Source of the DNA: an uncultured Flavobacteriales bacterium
GTDB lineage: Bacteria; Bacteroidota; Bacteroidia; Flavobacteriales_G; Salibacteraceae
Reading direction: 5' to 3'
NCBI GenBank assembly: GCA_943788725.1
Contig: CALSRJ010000003.1
Span: forward strand, 496,001-560,000
DNA length: 64,000 nt
The notes under the pieces are model-generated. The model had not been told where the DNA came from. It worked only from the letters and a program-made list of their open reading frames with translations, and searched no databases. The stretch's first letter is position 1, and each line of letters begins with the position of its first letter. A program made the translations under genes and the position numbers. This document shows positions 46,096-52,205 of this stretch, piece after piece.

Positions 46096-48219
46096 CTAAC
46101 CCTTACCCTTCTTTTCCAATTCCAACAAAAAGGCGTACTCCAAGGCGATTTCCTTGTACACTTCAAACCTTCCGCTGGCGCCACCGTGGCCGAATTCCAT
46201 GTTGATGTGAAAAAGCAATTGATGCGTATCCGTCTTCATCTCTCTCAGCTTGGCAACCCACTTCATCGGCTCCCAATATTGGACTTGTGAATCGTGCAAG
46301 CCTGTAGTGACCAACATATTCGGATAGTCCTTCGCCTCGATGTTGTCGTAAGGCGAGTAAGTCTTGATGTAGTCGTAGTATTCTTCGTTTTTAGGATTTC
46401 CCCATTCGTCAAATTCCCCAGTAGTAAGCGGAATGCTTTCGTCGAGCATGGTGGAGACAACGTCCACAAAAGGAACCGCTGCGATGATGCCATTCCACAT
46501 CTCAGGCGCCATGTTGATGACCGCTCCCATCAAGAGTCCACCAGCGCTTCCGCCCATGGCGTATAGGTGATTTTTGGAGGTGTAGCCCTCGCTGATAAGA
46601 AATGTTCCGCAATCTATGAAGTCGTTGAAGGTGTTCATCTTTTGGAGCATCTTGCCGTCTTCGTACCATTGCCTTCCCATCATTTGGCTTCCCCGAATGT
46701 GGGCAATGCAAAAGATGAATCCTCGGTTGAGTAAACTCAATCGTGAGGGACTGAATGTAGGTTCTACGGTAATGCCATAGGAGCCGTATCCGTATAGAAG
46801 CAAAGGCGTCTCTGCGCTAGGCTTTGTGTCCTTGTGCATGACCATAGACATGGGCACTTTGGCACCGTCACGCACCATGACCCAAATTCGCTTGACCACA
46901 TAATCTGCCTTGTCAAATCCTCCGAGCACCTCTTGTTGCTTGAGGAGCTTGCGCGAACGATCGTCCATGTTGTATTCGAAGACCGAACTCGGTGTGGTCA
47001 TACTGGTATAGCCAAATCGTAATGTCGAAGTCTCGAATTGAGGGTTAACACCACTATAAACCGTGTAAGCTTCTTCGTCAAAGGCGATGTAATGATCCGT
47101 TCCTTGATCCCAGGCAATCACACGGATAGCGCTTTGCGCATTGGTCTTCTCGGTCAAGACGAGGTAATCCATGAAGATGTCAAAATCATCCAATAGGACG
47201 TCTTCGCGATGTGGAATGACCTCTTCCCAATTGGCTTTTCCCGGTGAACTACTCGGAGCCTTCATCAACTTGAAGTTGGTAGCACCGTCTTTGTTGGTCA
47301 GGATGTAAAAATGACCGTCAAAATGTGAAATGGCATACTCGAGATCGCGCTCACGTTCTTGGACCAATTGCCATGTGCCATTGGGGTCGTTGGCGTCTAA
47401 AAATCGGTATTCATCCGAGACGGTAGCCCCGCTGTGGATGTAGATGTATCGCTTTGACTTGAACTTACCCACGCCAACGTTGAAAGTCTCATCCGTTTCG
47501 TGATAGACCTCTTCATCTTCTTCAGAGGGGGTGCCCATAACGTGCTTGAAGACCTTGAAAGAGCGCAGTGTAACAGGGTCTTTCTTGGTGTAGAAAACGG
47601 TCTGATTATCATTGGCCCAAGTGCAGCCTCCAGTGGTTCCTTCGATGCGGTCTGCTAGGTATTCGCCCGTTGATAGGTCCTTGAAGCGAAGCGTATAGAT
47701 CCGTCGGCTCAAGGTGTCTTCACCAAAAGCGAGGAGTTGATTGTTCGTGCTTATCGAGTTGCCGACCGCCTGATAGTAGCTCTCTCCTTCTGCCAATACA
47801 TTGACGTCGAGCATTACCTCTTCCGCTGCCTCTAGGCTCGCTTGCTTTCTGCAATGGATGGGGTATTCTTTGCCACTTTCATAGCGTGAGTAGTAGTAAT
47901 ACCCGTCGTAGAAATAAGGCACCGAACTGTCGTCTTGCTTGATGCGGCCTTTCAATTCTTCAAATAAAGCTTCCTGAAGAGCTTCGGTAGGCGCCATGAC
48001 GGCTTGGGTATAGGCGTTTTCAGCCTCTAGATGTGCTAGGATTTCAGGGTCTTTGCGCTCCATATCTCGCATCCAGTGATAATCATCGATGCGCGTATCT
48101 CCGTGTGTAGTGATTTCAAAAGGTGCCTTACGTGCGATGGGGGGGTGTATCATTTCAGTAGTCTCATTTTCTTGCGTTTCACAGGCCGTCAGGAAGACGA
48201 CCACAGCCGCTGTGTCCAT
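46096..48219 (-). CDS. S9 family peptidase (oligopeptidase B-like) lipoprotein
   Basis: 707 residues. A very short signal (MDTAAVVVFLTAC) ends in lipobox Cys13. The beta-propeller domain (about 30-420) begins with DDYHWMRDMERKDPEILAHL, as in oligopeptidase B. The C-terminal alpha/beta-hydrolase domain holds the nucleophile Ser558 in MGGSAGGLLMG, the Asp in TGLHDSQVQYWEP and the His in FGHGGASGR. It cleaves short peptides, in oligopeptidase B after basic residues. The lipid anchor is unusual for the cytoplasmic archetype but common in Bacteroidota. It lies between the repeat region and the divergent transaldolase gene. Confidence 0.92.
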   Translation of the reverse strand: MDTAAVVVFLTACETQENETTEMIHPPIARKAPFEITTHGDTRIDDYHWMRDMERKDPEILAHLEAENAYTQAVMAPTEALQEALFEELKGRIKQDDSSVPYFYDGYYYYSRYESGKEYPIHCRKQASLEAAEEVMLDVNVLAEGESYYQAVGNSISTNNQLLAFGEDTLSRRIYTLRFKDLSTGEYLADRIEGTTGGCTWANDNQTVFYTKKDPVTLRSFKVFKHVMGTPSEEDEEVYHETDETFNVGVGKFKSKRYIYIHSGATVSDEYRFLDANDPNGTWQLVQERERDLEYAISHFDGHFYILTNKDGATNFKLMKAPSSSPGKANWEEVIPHREDVLLDDFDIFMDYLVLTEKTNAQSAIRVIAWDQGTDHYIAFDEEAYTVYSGVNPQFETSTLRFGYTSMTTPSSVFEYNMDDRSRKLLKQQEVLGGFDKADYVVKRIWVMVRDGAKVPMSMVMHKDTKPSAETPLLLYGYGSYGITVEPTFSPSRLSLLNRGFIFCIAHIRGSQMMGRQWYEDGKMLQKMNTFNDFIDCGTFLISEGYTSKNHLYAMGGSAGGLLMGAVINMAPEMWNGIIAAVPFVDVVSTMLDESIPLTTGEFDEWGNPKNEEYYDYIKTYSPYDNIEAKDYPNMLVTTGLHDSQVQYWEPMKWVAKLREMKTDTHQLLFHINMEFGHGGASGRFEVYKEIALEYAFLLELEKKGKG

Positions 48220-48390
48220 GGCAATTTCAGGCGACGAATGTACGGCGTGGGAGGTGGAATCACTCTTCTTTTCACGTGTTTCTCAGTGGTCAATCGCTTC
48301 GGGCCTTGGCGGATTTAGAAATGGCATGTCGCTTCTGTAAATTTTTCCAACATTTGAAATTCCCTTACATTGAAACGCTAATCTCAACCA

Positions 48391-49047
48391 ATGAAATTCT
48401 TTATCGATACCGCCAACCTAGCCGAAATCCGCGAGGCAAATGACCTCGGCGTTCTAGACGGAGTAACTACCAACCCAAGCCTCATGGCAAAGGAAGGAAT
48501 CACGGGCGCCGACAACATCATTCAGCACTACATCAAGATCTGTGAGATCGTAGATGGCGACGTAAGCGCTGAAGTAATCGCAACAGACTATGAAGGCATC
48601 ATCCGAGAAGGAGAGGCATTGGCGAAACTGCACGAGAACATCGTGGTAAAGGTTCCGATGATCAAGGAAGGAGTAAAGGCGTTGAAGTATTTCAGCGATA
48701 AAGGCATTCGCACCAATTGCACCTTGATTTTTTCTGCCGGCCAGGCGCTGCTTGCTGCAAAGGCAGGGGCTTCCTATGTATCTCCATTTCTTGGGAGATT
48801 AGACGACGTCAGTACCGACGGACTCAACCTCATCGAGGAGATCCGCATCATTTTTGACAACTACGGATTCGCAACCGAGATCTTGGCTGCTTCGATCCGT
48901 CACCCGATCCACATCATTGAGTGCGCCAAGATCGGTGCAGATGTCGCTACGTGTCCGTTGAAACCGATTCTGCAGTTATTGAACCACCCCCTCACCGATG
49001 TCGGATTAGCGAAATTCCTAGCCGACTACGAGAAGGGAAACGCTTAA
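48391..49047 (+). CDS. fsa: Fructose-6-phosphate aldolase / transaldolase-like protein
   Basis: 218 residues, the short transaldolase subfamily. [20 protein letters not shown] and [14 protein letters not shown] open the TIM barrel. The Schiff-base lysine is Lys87 in NIVVKVPM, and [20 protein letters not shown] follows. It works either in the pentose-phosphate pathway (transaldolase) or as a fructose-6-phosphate aldolase; members of this size are hard to tell apart by sequence. It is followed after 3 bp by the Nramp-like gene. A TACATTGA sequence about 25 bp upstream may be the -7 box. Confidence 0.92.
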
Positions 49048-49050
49048 TGC

Positions 49051-50292
49051 ATGACCCTGCGTGACCGCTTAGCGCAATTTGGACCAGGACTGCTCTATGC
49101 GGGAGCTGCCGTGGGGGTATCCCATTTGGTGCAGAGCACGCGGGCTGGAGCCGAATTTGGACTCCAACTCTTGGCGGTCATCATCCTGGTCAACGTCATC
49201 AAGTACCCCATCTTCGAAAGCGGACCTCGCTATGCCGCGGCTACAGGCAAGTCCCTCTTAGATGGCTACCAGCGCATTGGCAATTGGGCCGTGTGGGTTT
49301 ATATGGCAATGAGCATCATTACTATGTTCATTATCATGGGCGCGATTTCGATCGTAACCGCAGGGTTGTTCGCCCAACTCACCAGTCTCGACGTTGAAGC
49401 CCCTTTTGTGGCGGTGATCTTGCTGACCATTTCGGTGTTCGTCTTGGGATGGGGGCACTATTTCACCTTGGATCGCGTGATGAAGTTCATCATCATTCTG
49501 CTGACCTTTTCTACCGTATTGGCGCTATCCTTTTCTTGGATCGAGCCTACCATTCGCTCCGAGGAGTTCATGCGCGTCTTTGACATCGGAGAGCGCAAAG
49601 ACGTGCTTTTTTTGGTTGCCTTGATTGGCTGGATGCCTGCACCCATCGACATTGCGATCTGGCATTCGGTCTGGTCGGTTTCTAAAAACAAGGAGCAGGG
49701 TAAGCGTATTCCCATGCGGCAGGCCCTCACCGATTTCAAGGTGGGATACTGGGGAACTACCTTTTTGGCGGTTTGCTTTGTTGGGCTCGGTGCGGTTATC
49801 ATGTATGGCACGCCTGAATCCCCCGCTTCAGGTAGCGTAGCTTTTGCCGAACAGCTCATCAGAATGTACACGGCAAACTTGGGACATTGGGCATTTCCTT
49901 TCATCGCTTTGGCCGCCTTCACTACCATGTTCAGCACCTTGCTCACCTGCCTCGATGCCTTTCCACGCACCCTACGCAGATCCACGAAACTGGTCGTTCA
50001 TCACTTCGAAGACAAAAAATACCACAGCGGCTTGTATTGGTTCTGGCTGATCTTGACGGCGCTCGGAACCACGGTCATCCTGCTTTTCTTCTTTCGAGAC
50101 ATGCGTGCACTGGTAGACTTGGCTACTACGCTGTCTTTTGTGATTGCTCCCGTATTCGCCATCCTGAATTTTGTGGCCATGTACGATAAGGATGTTCCAG
50201 CCGAATCTAAACCTTCCGTTTGGATGAAACGTTTTAATATCGCATCCATCGTATTGCTATCAGGATTCAGCCTTTGGTATATACTCTATTGA
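49051..50292 (+). CDS. Nramp-related membrane transporter with non-canonical metal site
   Basis: 413 residues with about eleven membrane segments and the Nramp (SLC11) fold. The first segment begins FGPGLLYAGAA and ends RAGAEFGLQLL, which aligns without gaps to the classic TM1. However, the metal-binding motif DPGN is replaced by GVSH (residues 22-25). In TM6 the usual MPH motif reads MPAPIDIAIWHS. The transported ion is therefore uncertain; magnesium, aluminium or proton-only activity occurs in divergent Nramp relatives. It lies 3 bp after the transaldolase gene, and its stop overlaps the frame upstream of the next gene. Confidence 0.88.
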   Translation: MTLRDRLAQFGPGLLYAGAAVGVSHLVQSTRAGAEFGLQLLAVIILVNVIKYPIFESGPRYAAATGKSLLDGYQRIGNWAVWVYMAMSIITMFIIMGAISIVTAGLFAQLTSLDVEAPFVAVILLTISVFVLGWGHYFTLDRVMKFIIILLTFSTVLALSFSWIEPTIRSEEFMRVFDIGERKDVLFLVALIGWMPAPIDIAIWHSVWSVSKNKEQGKRIPMRQALTDFKVGYWGTTFLAVCFVGLGAVIMYGTPESPASGSVAFAEQLIRMYTANLGHWAFPFIALAAFTTMFSTLLTCLDAFPRTLRRSTKLVVHHFEDKKYHSGLYWFWLILTALGTTVILLFFFRDMRALVDLATTLSFVIAPVFAILNFVAMYDKDVPAESKPSVWMKRFNIASIVLLSGFSLWYILY

Positions 50293-50309
50293 CCTTTAAA
50301 GACCTTTCT

Positions 50310-52205
50310 ATGAGACAAATCGTACTTCTACTCACGCTCCTTCCTATGATCGGAATAGCTCAACAGAGCGTCACCGTCAAGCACATGAAGATCTCTGATC
50401 ATTGGACCGTAGATCCGCGTGCATTTCAGGAAGATTTTAGCGTCGAGCTGAAGAACATCGAACCACCGCTGCCTGGGGGTGATTTGAATCGAGAGGAGAT
50501 GCGGGCACTTAAACGTCGTATGAATGAGTTGTACCCGCGAACGACGTCATTGAGCTCAACACGAGGCGACAGATCTACCGATACGCTAACCATAGGTCAA
50601 AGCTTTCCTGCTGACTTCTTTTTGAACCAAGCGCCGATTGGCGGAGGCACCCCAAACGACAACACCCTCGCCATCTCCGACGATGGAAAATTGATTTCTT
50701 CATGGAATTCACAATTGTGGGCCTATGATATTGTGGCCGATACGTACTTGTTTGCCTATCCCAACATGCACCCCAGCTTCAATCAATTCCTGAACATTTA
50801 CAACGACACGGCCTTCAGTCTCTTCCAACCGTTTGATCCCAAACTGCTTTACGATCCGACCCGCCAGCGTTTCATCATGCTTTTTATGACCGGTCGCAAT
50901 CCGAGCAACAGCGCCACGATCGTTTCTTTTTCCACATCTACTGACCCCAAGGACCCCTGGCACGCTTACCGATTGCCCGGGAATCCGTTGACGTATGATA
51001 CTTGGAGTGACTATCCTCAAATCGCCATCAATGAGAACAGTTTTTACTTGACGCTGAATCAGCTCTATCCCGATTCCGGCTGGGTAGAAGGATTCGCGGA
51101 GACCTTGCTGTGGCAAATGGACCTGGACGAAGCCTTTGCAGGGGAGGAATCGGTCACTACCAAGCTATGGACGGGCTTCACCTATGAAGGAAAGAACATC
51201 CGCTATTTGCACCCTGTAAAAACGCACATGGGTCCACAAGGAGACTCCATGTACCTCGTAGCGAACCGCCCTTTTGTTGAGACCAACGACACGTTTTTCA
51301 TTGTGCGGGTGGAAGGTGATGCGGATGATCCGATTACAGCCGTGGATGTCAAAATGACCTCGGGAGGACTTCAATACGGACACCCACCTTATGCGAAACA
51401 GTCGGGCGGAAACCAGGAATTCTGGACGAACGATGCCCGTGTTTTGGGTGCTGTTCGTATGGGAAAGGAAATTCATATCACAGGAAATACCGTTGACTTC
51501 AATTCAGGAAAGGCGACCATCTACCATGGAAAAATTGCTGATGCAGAGGCACCGACGGTCGTGGGTACCATCATTTCAGATCCGGTGAAAGAATTAGGTT
51601 TTCCCAATTTGGATTTCATCGGCGTGACTCCTACAGATCGGGACGTCGTGATTTTCGCTAACCACACGGGTACAACCATTCACCCGGGCAATTCTGCGAT
51701 CTATATCGACCACGACGGGAATTATGGACCATTGCAAACGGTTGCAAAAGGAGAGACCTACGTAGACGGATTGCCATGGGCAGATGAACGTTGGGGCGAT
51801 TACACCGGTTTGCAGCGCAAGTTCAACGAAACGGCAGAAGTGTGGGTGGCTGGCTATTGGGGGTTCGCCTCCCAGCGGCCAGGTATTTACATCAGCCAGC
51901 TTCAGAGTCCTAAGCACGGTCCACTCAGTGTAGAGAATGAACCTGAGCAAGCGAGCATCACAATCTATCCGAATCCGACCATGGAATGGGTGCAATTTCA
52001 GTTTGACCTCGCGGGAAGCGTAGAGGGTGTCATTGAAATTCGCGACGTGCAGGGTCGGTATGTTGCCACCATCGGCAAAGGATTGATCAAGTCAGGAGCC
52101 AATCAACTTGGATTCGACGTTTCATCTCTCGCCGCGGGAACCTACGTAGTGCAGGTAAAGAGTGCAGAAGGCATTCATTTTACCGAGAAGTTCATCAAAC
52201 AGTAG
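50310..52205 (+). CDS. Secreted protein with T9SS type A sorting domain
   Basis: 631 residues from the ATG at 50310 (signal MRQIVLLLTLLPMIGIAQ); the frame opens upstream at 50274, inside the Nramp gene. The long middle (about 90-530) is beta-rich and contains propeller-like stretches (DNTLAISDDGKLISSWNSQL; KDPWHAYRLPG), but I recognise no enzyme motif. The C-terminal ~80 residues are the type A sorting domain: ITIYPNPTMEW (from 550), VQGRYVATIG and a final LAAGTYVVQVKS...EKFIKQ. It is exported by the type IX system. The function is unknown. Confidence 0.88.
   Translation: MRQIVLLLTLLPMIGIAQQSVTVKHMKISDHWTVDPRAFQEDFSVELKNIEPPLPGGDLNREEMRALKRRMNELYPRTTSLSSTRGDRSTDTLTIGQSFPADFFLNQAPIGGGTPNDNTLAISDDGKLISSWNSQLWAYDIVADTYLFAYPNMHPSFNQFLNIYNDTAFSLFQPFDPKLLYDPTRQRFIMLFMTGRNPSNSATIVSFSTSTDPKDPWHAYRLPGNPLTYDTWSDYPQIAINENSFYLTLNQLYPDSGWVEGFAETLLWQMDLDEAFAGEESVTTKLWTGFTYEGKNIRYLHPVKTHMGPQGDSMYLVANRPFVETNDTFFIVRVEGDADDPITAVDVKMTSGGLQYGHPPYAKQSGGNQEFWTNDARVLGAVRMGKEIHITGNTVDFNSGKATIYHGKIADAEAPTVVGTIISDPVKELGFPNLDFIGVTPTDRDVVIFANHTGTTIHPGNSAIYIDHDGNYGPLQTVAKGETYVDGLPWADERWGDYTGLQRKFNETAEVWVAGYWGFASQRPGIYISQLQSPKHGPLSVENEPEQASITIYPNPTMEWVQFQFDLAGSVEGVIEIRDVQGRYVATIGKGLIKSGANQLGFDVSSLAAGTYVVQVKSAEGIHFTEKFIKQ

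Follow-up and report, generated by a model that had tools for sequence, protein, structure and literature searches.

In the canonical Nramp transporter DraNramp, D56 and N59 act as ligands (PMC10185341; papers are cited here by PMC number, each for the part of its text that was available). Other members of the family differ in both sequence and reported function. Proteins referred to as Nramp-related are paraphyletic to the canonical Nramps and have diverse residues in place of the DPGN and MPH motifs (PMC12873925). Mn import has been reported for an Nramp-outgroup protein of A. capsulatum (PMC4072509), for MumT, which is less than 25% identical to reported Nramps (PMC5050338), and for YcsG (PMC10448178). 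A clade B Nramp without most of the proton route still imports, in a proton-independent manner (PMC12873925). Functions among the Nramp-related proteins are mixed, or else under dispute.

The gene considered here lies in a window of 64,000 nucleotides (the whole stretch of DNA that was analysed) from an uncultured Flavobacteriales bacterium. A preliminary description had called its product Nramp-like, and the family models agree: the window protein matches PF01566 (Nramp; Pfam) with 46 bits against a cut-off of 29.8 and the NCBIfam model NF037982, "Nramp family divalent metal transporter", with 76 bits against a cut-off of 50. The canonical models are missed (TIGR01197, 12.8 bits against 272.5; PRK00701, 19.8 bits against 430). 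By its PF01566 match, its position outside the canonical clade and its lack of DPGN, MPH and the TM3 acidic residue, the protein falls among the Nramp-related ("orphan outgroup") proteins, and within this non-canonical part of PF01566 its sequence assigns it to a subfamily referred to in the following as the SH type. The features of the locus are:

48391-49047, forward strand: upstream gene for a fructose-6-phosphate aldolase/transaldolase, a lineage-specific neighbour (best model TIGR00875, 294 bits)
49051-50292, forward strand: coding sequence of the 413-aa Nramp-related membrane transporter, a PF01566 protein (Pfam and NCBIfam models, relatives)
49111-49128, forward strand: TM1 break V21-G-V-S-H-L26, with G22 at the canonical Asp and H25 at the canonical Asn position (gapless alignment)
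49348-49350, forward strand: S100 at the position of the canonical TM3 Glu (E134), acidic in 0 of 68 members (alignment)
49627-49650, forward strand: TM6 break G193-W-M-P-A-P-I-D200, with A197 at the canonical Met (M230) and I199/D200 at the His232/Asn233 positions (alignment)
49954-49956, forward strand: D302 in TM8, kept in 68 of 68 SH-type members (68-row alignment)
50125-50127, forward strand: T359 at the position of the canonical TM10 Gln (Q378), T in 66 of 68 members (alignment)

When solved structures were searched with the window protein as a single sequence, no match was found at E up to 1. A profile of the SH-type subfamily matched 5m94 (E=8.9e-9), 8ont (2.8e-7) and 7qia (0.002), which we take to be MntH (ScaDMT), a plant NRAT and the EleNRMT transporter, respectively. 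These profile matches lend indirect support to a LeuT fold, which the transporter probably shares together with alternating access; a structure predicted from the window protein and two relatives reached a pLDDT of 42 and a pTM of 0.39, too low to be of use. Relatedness is also supported by profile-profile alignments. A search of a viral sequence collection returned zero relatives.

Most of what the preliminary description had said about the two helix breaks holds. Across window residues 9-40, TM1 aligns without a gap to 13 canonical Bacteroidota Nramps, and Gly and His occupy the Asp and Asn positions, so that GVSH (residues 22-25; 49114-49125, forward strand) is read where canonical proteins have DPGN. 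TM6 is altered at the Met position as described: in the 83-row MAFFT alignment, the canonical G-A-T-V-M-P-H-N pairs with G193-W-M-P-A-P-I-D200, and the canonical A/CxxM-PH becomes WxxA followed by P, I and D. The invariant M195 sits two residues before A197. The HMMER alignment to ScaDMT differs from the MAFFT alignment in that gaps bring M195-P196 onto the canonical MP, and the pairing of D200 is uncertain by one because of a one-residue insertion just past the TM6 motif. The profile-profile alignment to the canonical set shifted both TM1 and TM6 by gaps; the mapping thus rests on the MAFFT alignment and the NRAT row of the profile search of solved structures, with D56, N59 and the other DraNramp numbers transferred by motif, DraNramp itself being absent from the alignment. 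Reading GxxH-WxxA, the window protein shows neither the NRAT signature DxxN-AxxT nor the NRMT signature DxxG-TxxA/T (PMC8806188).

Conservation was assessed in 68 aligned members of the subfamily; the rows omitted are the interrupted copy L007, the fragment L033 and sequences that duplicate the window, L001 or L002. G22, S24, H25, W194, M195, P196, S206, W208, T296 and D302 are invariant in 68/68, and at residue 200 every member has an acid (D in 65, E in three). Residue 23 is V in 64 members, T in three and A in one, the canonical-Met position is Ala or Thr in 66/68, and the NF037982 model recognises every one of the 68 at E<=0.001. Since G22, S24 and H25 are identical in every aligned relative, the GVSH motif is not a product of chance. 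A codon comparison with a 94%-identical relative (dN 0.030, dS 0.54, dN/dS 0.055) reveals strong purifying selection on the transporter gene, and a pseudogene was rejected on this ground. The full-length rows found at order and class level are free of stops, with the one exception of G023, which has one TAA. GVSH is the selected state of the whole subfamily, neither a quirk of this protein nor a product of decay.

The type extends beyond the Bacteroidota. Plasmid records contain full-length GGSH relatives with 33-36% identity in Pseudoalteromonas, Photobacterium and Neisseria, and distant relatives with about 24-25% identity in Azospirillum and Skermanella (GASH) and in haloarchaea (GSSH or GGSH). 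In the 83-row alignment, read by eye, D302 is present in 47/47 SH-type rows and in 0/36 other rows, whereas an acidic residue 200 occurs in 45/47 SH-type rows and additionally in three rows of the GSGE type. The two SH-type rows without it are haloarchaeal, and these relatives keep H25 and D302 yet lack the TM6 acid.

A phylogeny against the known clades, as the preliminary description had proposed, was calculated with IQ-TREE from 69 of the 83 rows (14 near-duplicates omitted, motif columns kept) and drawn from the midpoint. It places the SH type apart from canonical Nramp, NRMT and NRAT. The 38 SH rows form one group (support 100/99) adjoining the GSGE type (98/93). The canonical Nramps make up one clade (100/100), with which the NRAT row groups, and the four NRMT rows make up another (100/99), outside which the SH rows fall. 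A 100/99 branch separates the canonical, NRMT, GPGT, GPSK and GTGS types from the SH type; the grouping of canonical Nramp with NRMT, at 94/73, is not strong. Long end branches (L136, L144) and an odd letter make-up (L060, L111) call for caution, and because long branches join one another (L144 with the haloarchaeal rows; the Azospirillum with the haloarchaeal rows), the placement of these sequences is unsure.

The tree also bears on the claim that the metal-binding residues had been "replaced". The residues do differ from those of canonical Nramps, but the word suggests that a canonical Nramp had lost them, whereas the protein sits on a separate deep branch. Gly at the canonical-Asp position is common to the SH type and seven other non-DxxG types (GPGT, GTGS, GSGE, GPSK, GAAD, GTAD and GAGD), and among the types seen Asp at this TM1 position is confined to canonical Nramp and NRMT. 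It would therefore be simpler for Asp to have arisen on the canonical/NRMT side than for it to have been lost in the SH type, in agreement with the placement of Nramp-related proteins in the available part of PMC12873925. To judge from the sequences, a strangely mutated Nramp is the wrong picture, and the SH type is an old, separate branch. As a side observation on the canonical Bacteroidota Nramps (L052-L081), these are mostly open frames of about 625-690 aa; in L052, the one protein scanned, a universal stress protein domain (PF00582) makes up the additional C-terminal stretch.

The genomic context offers few clues. As the preliminary description had noted, the transporter ATG follows the stop of the transaldolase gene by 3 bp. 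The aldolase gene precedes the transporter in 6/22 loci, namely in the window and in five relatives of 62-94% identity; an operon of the two was therefore rejected, and a neighbour restricted to close relatives says little on function. In the 22 wide loci no other neighbour family is widely shared and no conserved catabolic partner was found. Fifteen neighbours of SH-type genes, compared by eye, are mutually unrelated and none resembles pxpABC. Six neighbours in the Neisseria, Photobacterium and Pseudoalteromonas records showed no link: one had no match, and the others matched a class II tRNA synthetase, a YdbH-like protein, an outer-membrane efflux protein, an HDOD protein and an NAD kinase. 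A riboswitch scan of 40 loci detected no riboswitch, the M-box included, and only two tRNAs, and a scan of 48200-50500 returned 0 promoters and 0 terminators. An ORF for an IS110-family transposase (PF02371, PF01548; 44712-45764, reverse strand) lies roughly 3.3 kb ahead of the transporter. Among genes of other types on plasmids, one on a Haloferax gibbonsii plasmid (L152), whose product is 48% identical to the GPGT-type protein, is directly followed by two hydantoinase/oxoprolinase genes, which suggests an organic substrate for this GPGT-like type, a type other than SH. On a Mesobacillus foraminis plasmid (L145), a GTAD-type gene stands directly after genes for a 3-oxoacid CoA-transferase and a thiolase.

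The distribution of the SH type was compared with that of canonical Nramp. Protein searches gave a match in 33/40 genomes at the order level, a few being fragments, and in 73/396 genomes at the class level. Of the latter, 63 were taken as SH-type carriers, and ten weak matches to other types (E 8e-9 to 6e-4) were excluded. TM1 was read in 56 of the carriers; the remaining seven were assigned by score alone (G047, G136, G176, G243, G297, G391 and G055, a fragment at a contig end). Canonical Nramp (TIGR01197, E<=1e-40) is present in 185/396 class genomes, 165 of them above the curated cut-off, and it occurs in 5/63 SH-type carriers versus 180/333 non-carriers (odds ratio 0.07, Fisher 1e-12). Counted by genus, the figures are 4/43 carrier versus 80/156 non-carrier genera (2e-7). 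The Mg2+ importer MgtE, used both as a control and to test whether the SH type might carry Mg2+, is commoner in carriers (58/63, a count read off the table by eye) than in the other genomes (262/333; p 0.014). A within-family stratified test over the six families holding carriers, non-carriers and canonical copies yields p 0.02, with the signal coming from families f53 and f54 and with family totals that may be short, 56 genomes without MgtE being unlisted. As the genomes are not independent and the within-family signal stems from two families, shared ancestry accounts for much of this avoidance. Moreover, all eight f54 carriers have two to four PF01566 matches each, so that other Nramp-related genes could serve there. 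The carriers that also have a canonical copy occur in families f1, f11, f16 and f46. In the genome of the window, 99% complete, canonical Nramp is absent, and the single further PF01566 match (22 bits) belongs to a sodium:solute symporter and was dismissed as a second Nramp. Altogether the avoidance pattern is suggestive support for a job shared with MntH, not proof, and it is plausible that the SH type is a stand-in for MntH.

The preliminary description had concluded that the protein cannot bind Mn or Fe in the known way. This is true of the canonical set of ligands, but the same pair of helix breaks also contains H25 and M195, both invariant, and D/E200, acidic in each of the 68 aligned members. 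Other candidate acidic or sulfur ligands at the canonical site, which would speak against that conclusion, are thus found at the level of sequence, although not of structure. With a chance that we put a little short of even, the SH type brings a divalent transition metal into the cell; Mn2+ is the likeliest one, and H25, M195 and D200 are candidate ligands. The transporter would then act as an inner-membrane importer by alternating access of its LeuT fold and would hold the substrate where the TM1 break (G22-V-S-H25) faces that of TM6 (W194-M-P-A-P-x-D200); H25, D/E200 and perhaps M195 and D302 would provide side-chain ligands. D302 in TM8 is presumably not far from the position of the LeuT sodium-2 site. 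Mn2+ would come first among the likely substrates, and the protein would take the place of MntH in lineages that have none. With the TM3 acidic residue of the canonical proton pathway absent, coupling, if any, must differ; judging by the proton-independent import of the clade B Nramp (PMC12873925, available part), a missing proton route is compatible with import. A metal is favoured because the ligand-type residues in both breaks are invariant or always acidic, and because canonical Nramp is avoided while MgtE is kept. The same reading is weakened by the haloarchaeal relatives with H25 and D302 and no TM6 acid, by the lack of either a riboswitch or a conserved partner gene beside the transporter in the loci scanned, and by the disputed role of a homologue, PxpT, which is 50% identical to YcsG and needed for growth on 5-oxoproline (PMC13274462, available part). 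A more far-reaching version appears rather unlikely to us: here the SH type would represent a second, independent transition-metal site in the Nramp fold (His in TM1; Met and Asp/Glu in TM6), without the canonical proton pathway, and would replace MntH as the Mn importer across a large part of the Bacteroidia, with relatives in Neisseria and marine gammaproteobacteria.

The main rival to a metal is an organic substrate. An importer for an organic solute (an amide, an amino acid or a small carboxylate, 5-oxoproline for example), with H+ or Na+ as coupling ion as in other LeuT-fold APC carriers, could use H25, D200 and the TM8 patch S295-T296/D302, which we take to lie near the LeuT sodium-2 site, for binding the solute or that ion. 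We consider this possible, if well below an even chance. Gly where canonical proteins have Asp would suit a carrier that has no site for a divalent metal, other outgroup genes adjoin organic-acid genes in the plasmid records, and PxpT is required for growth of C. glutamicum on 5-oxoproline (PMC13274462, available part). However, the 22 SH-type loci contain 0 conserved catabolic partners, the invariant His and Met and the always acidic residue fit metal chemistry, and an organic-solute importer would not be expected to avoid canonical Nramp. A Mg2+ transporter like the NRMT branch is improbable. The absent TM3 acidic residue would be in line with it, as would Ala or Thr at the Met position in 66/68 members, which resembles the NRMT signature DxxG-TxxA/T (PMC8806188, available part), but the SH type lies outside the NRMT clade and lacks the NRMT Asp, MgtE is retained in 58/63 carriers and none of the 40 loci scanned has an M-box. 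The combination of His, Met and an acidic residue would also suit a transition metal better than Mg2+. That the protein is a canonical Nramp with a lost metal site, decaying or turned non-transporting, has a very slight probability: the canonical ligands Asp, Asn and Met are indeed missing from their positions, yet a dN/dS of 0.055, a motif invariant throughout the subfamily, a separate deep branch and full-length rows without stops, apart from the single TAA of G023, all contradict decay.

If the SH type is a metal carrier, the Nramp fold has arrived at more than one metal site, and a Mn importer can be named for the many Bacteroidia that yielded no MntH. Should the substrate be organic instead, the NF037982 name "Nramp family divalent metal transporter" misleads for the whole subfamily. 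Either substrate would inform the origin of metal selectivity, because such proteins are placed below the canonical Nramps in the tree of PMC12873925 (available part). A search of the open-licence literature on Nramp motifs, Nramp phylogeny, Bacteroidetes/Flavobacter and Neisseria found no description of the subtype. As far as found, the SH subtype with its own candidate site is uncharacterised, while the NF037982 annotation and the absence of DPGN and MPH in Nramp-related proteins were known.

Among described systems, the SH type shares with the Nramp-related or "orphan outgroup" proteins (PMC12873925, PMC10606218, PMC9606685) PF01566 membership, the lack of DPGN, MPH and proton-pathway residues and the paraphyly to canonical Nramp; in the available parts of these three papers a subtype with SH, WMPAPx[DE] and D302 is not named. 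The GSGE-type Nramp-related proteins of Bacteroidota (L122, L125, L132) form the adjoining group and likewise have an acidic residue 200, but they carry Glu instead of His at position 25 and no D302. YcsG/MntG of B. subtilis and PxpT of C. glutamicum, compared by description only, also belong to the Nramp family without being MntH, and reports credit them with Mn import or 5-oxoproline uptake; they are encoded with 5-oxoprolinase genes (pxpABC), whereas no such partner was seen beside the SH type among the 15 neighbours compared by eye. NRMT (EleNRMT) resembles the SH type in lacking the Met ligand, with mostly Ala or Thr there, while the SH type has neither the Asp and Gly of DxxG nor the Thr of TxxA and belongs to a separate clade. 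With canonical Nramp/MntH (TIGR01197, ScaDMT, DraNramp) the SH type has in common the gapless TM1, the GPG and AG/GG frame and the profile match to solved MntH, but it differs at the positions of D56, N59, M230, E134 and Q378 alike, stays below the canonical model cut-offs and falls into another clade.
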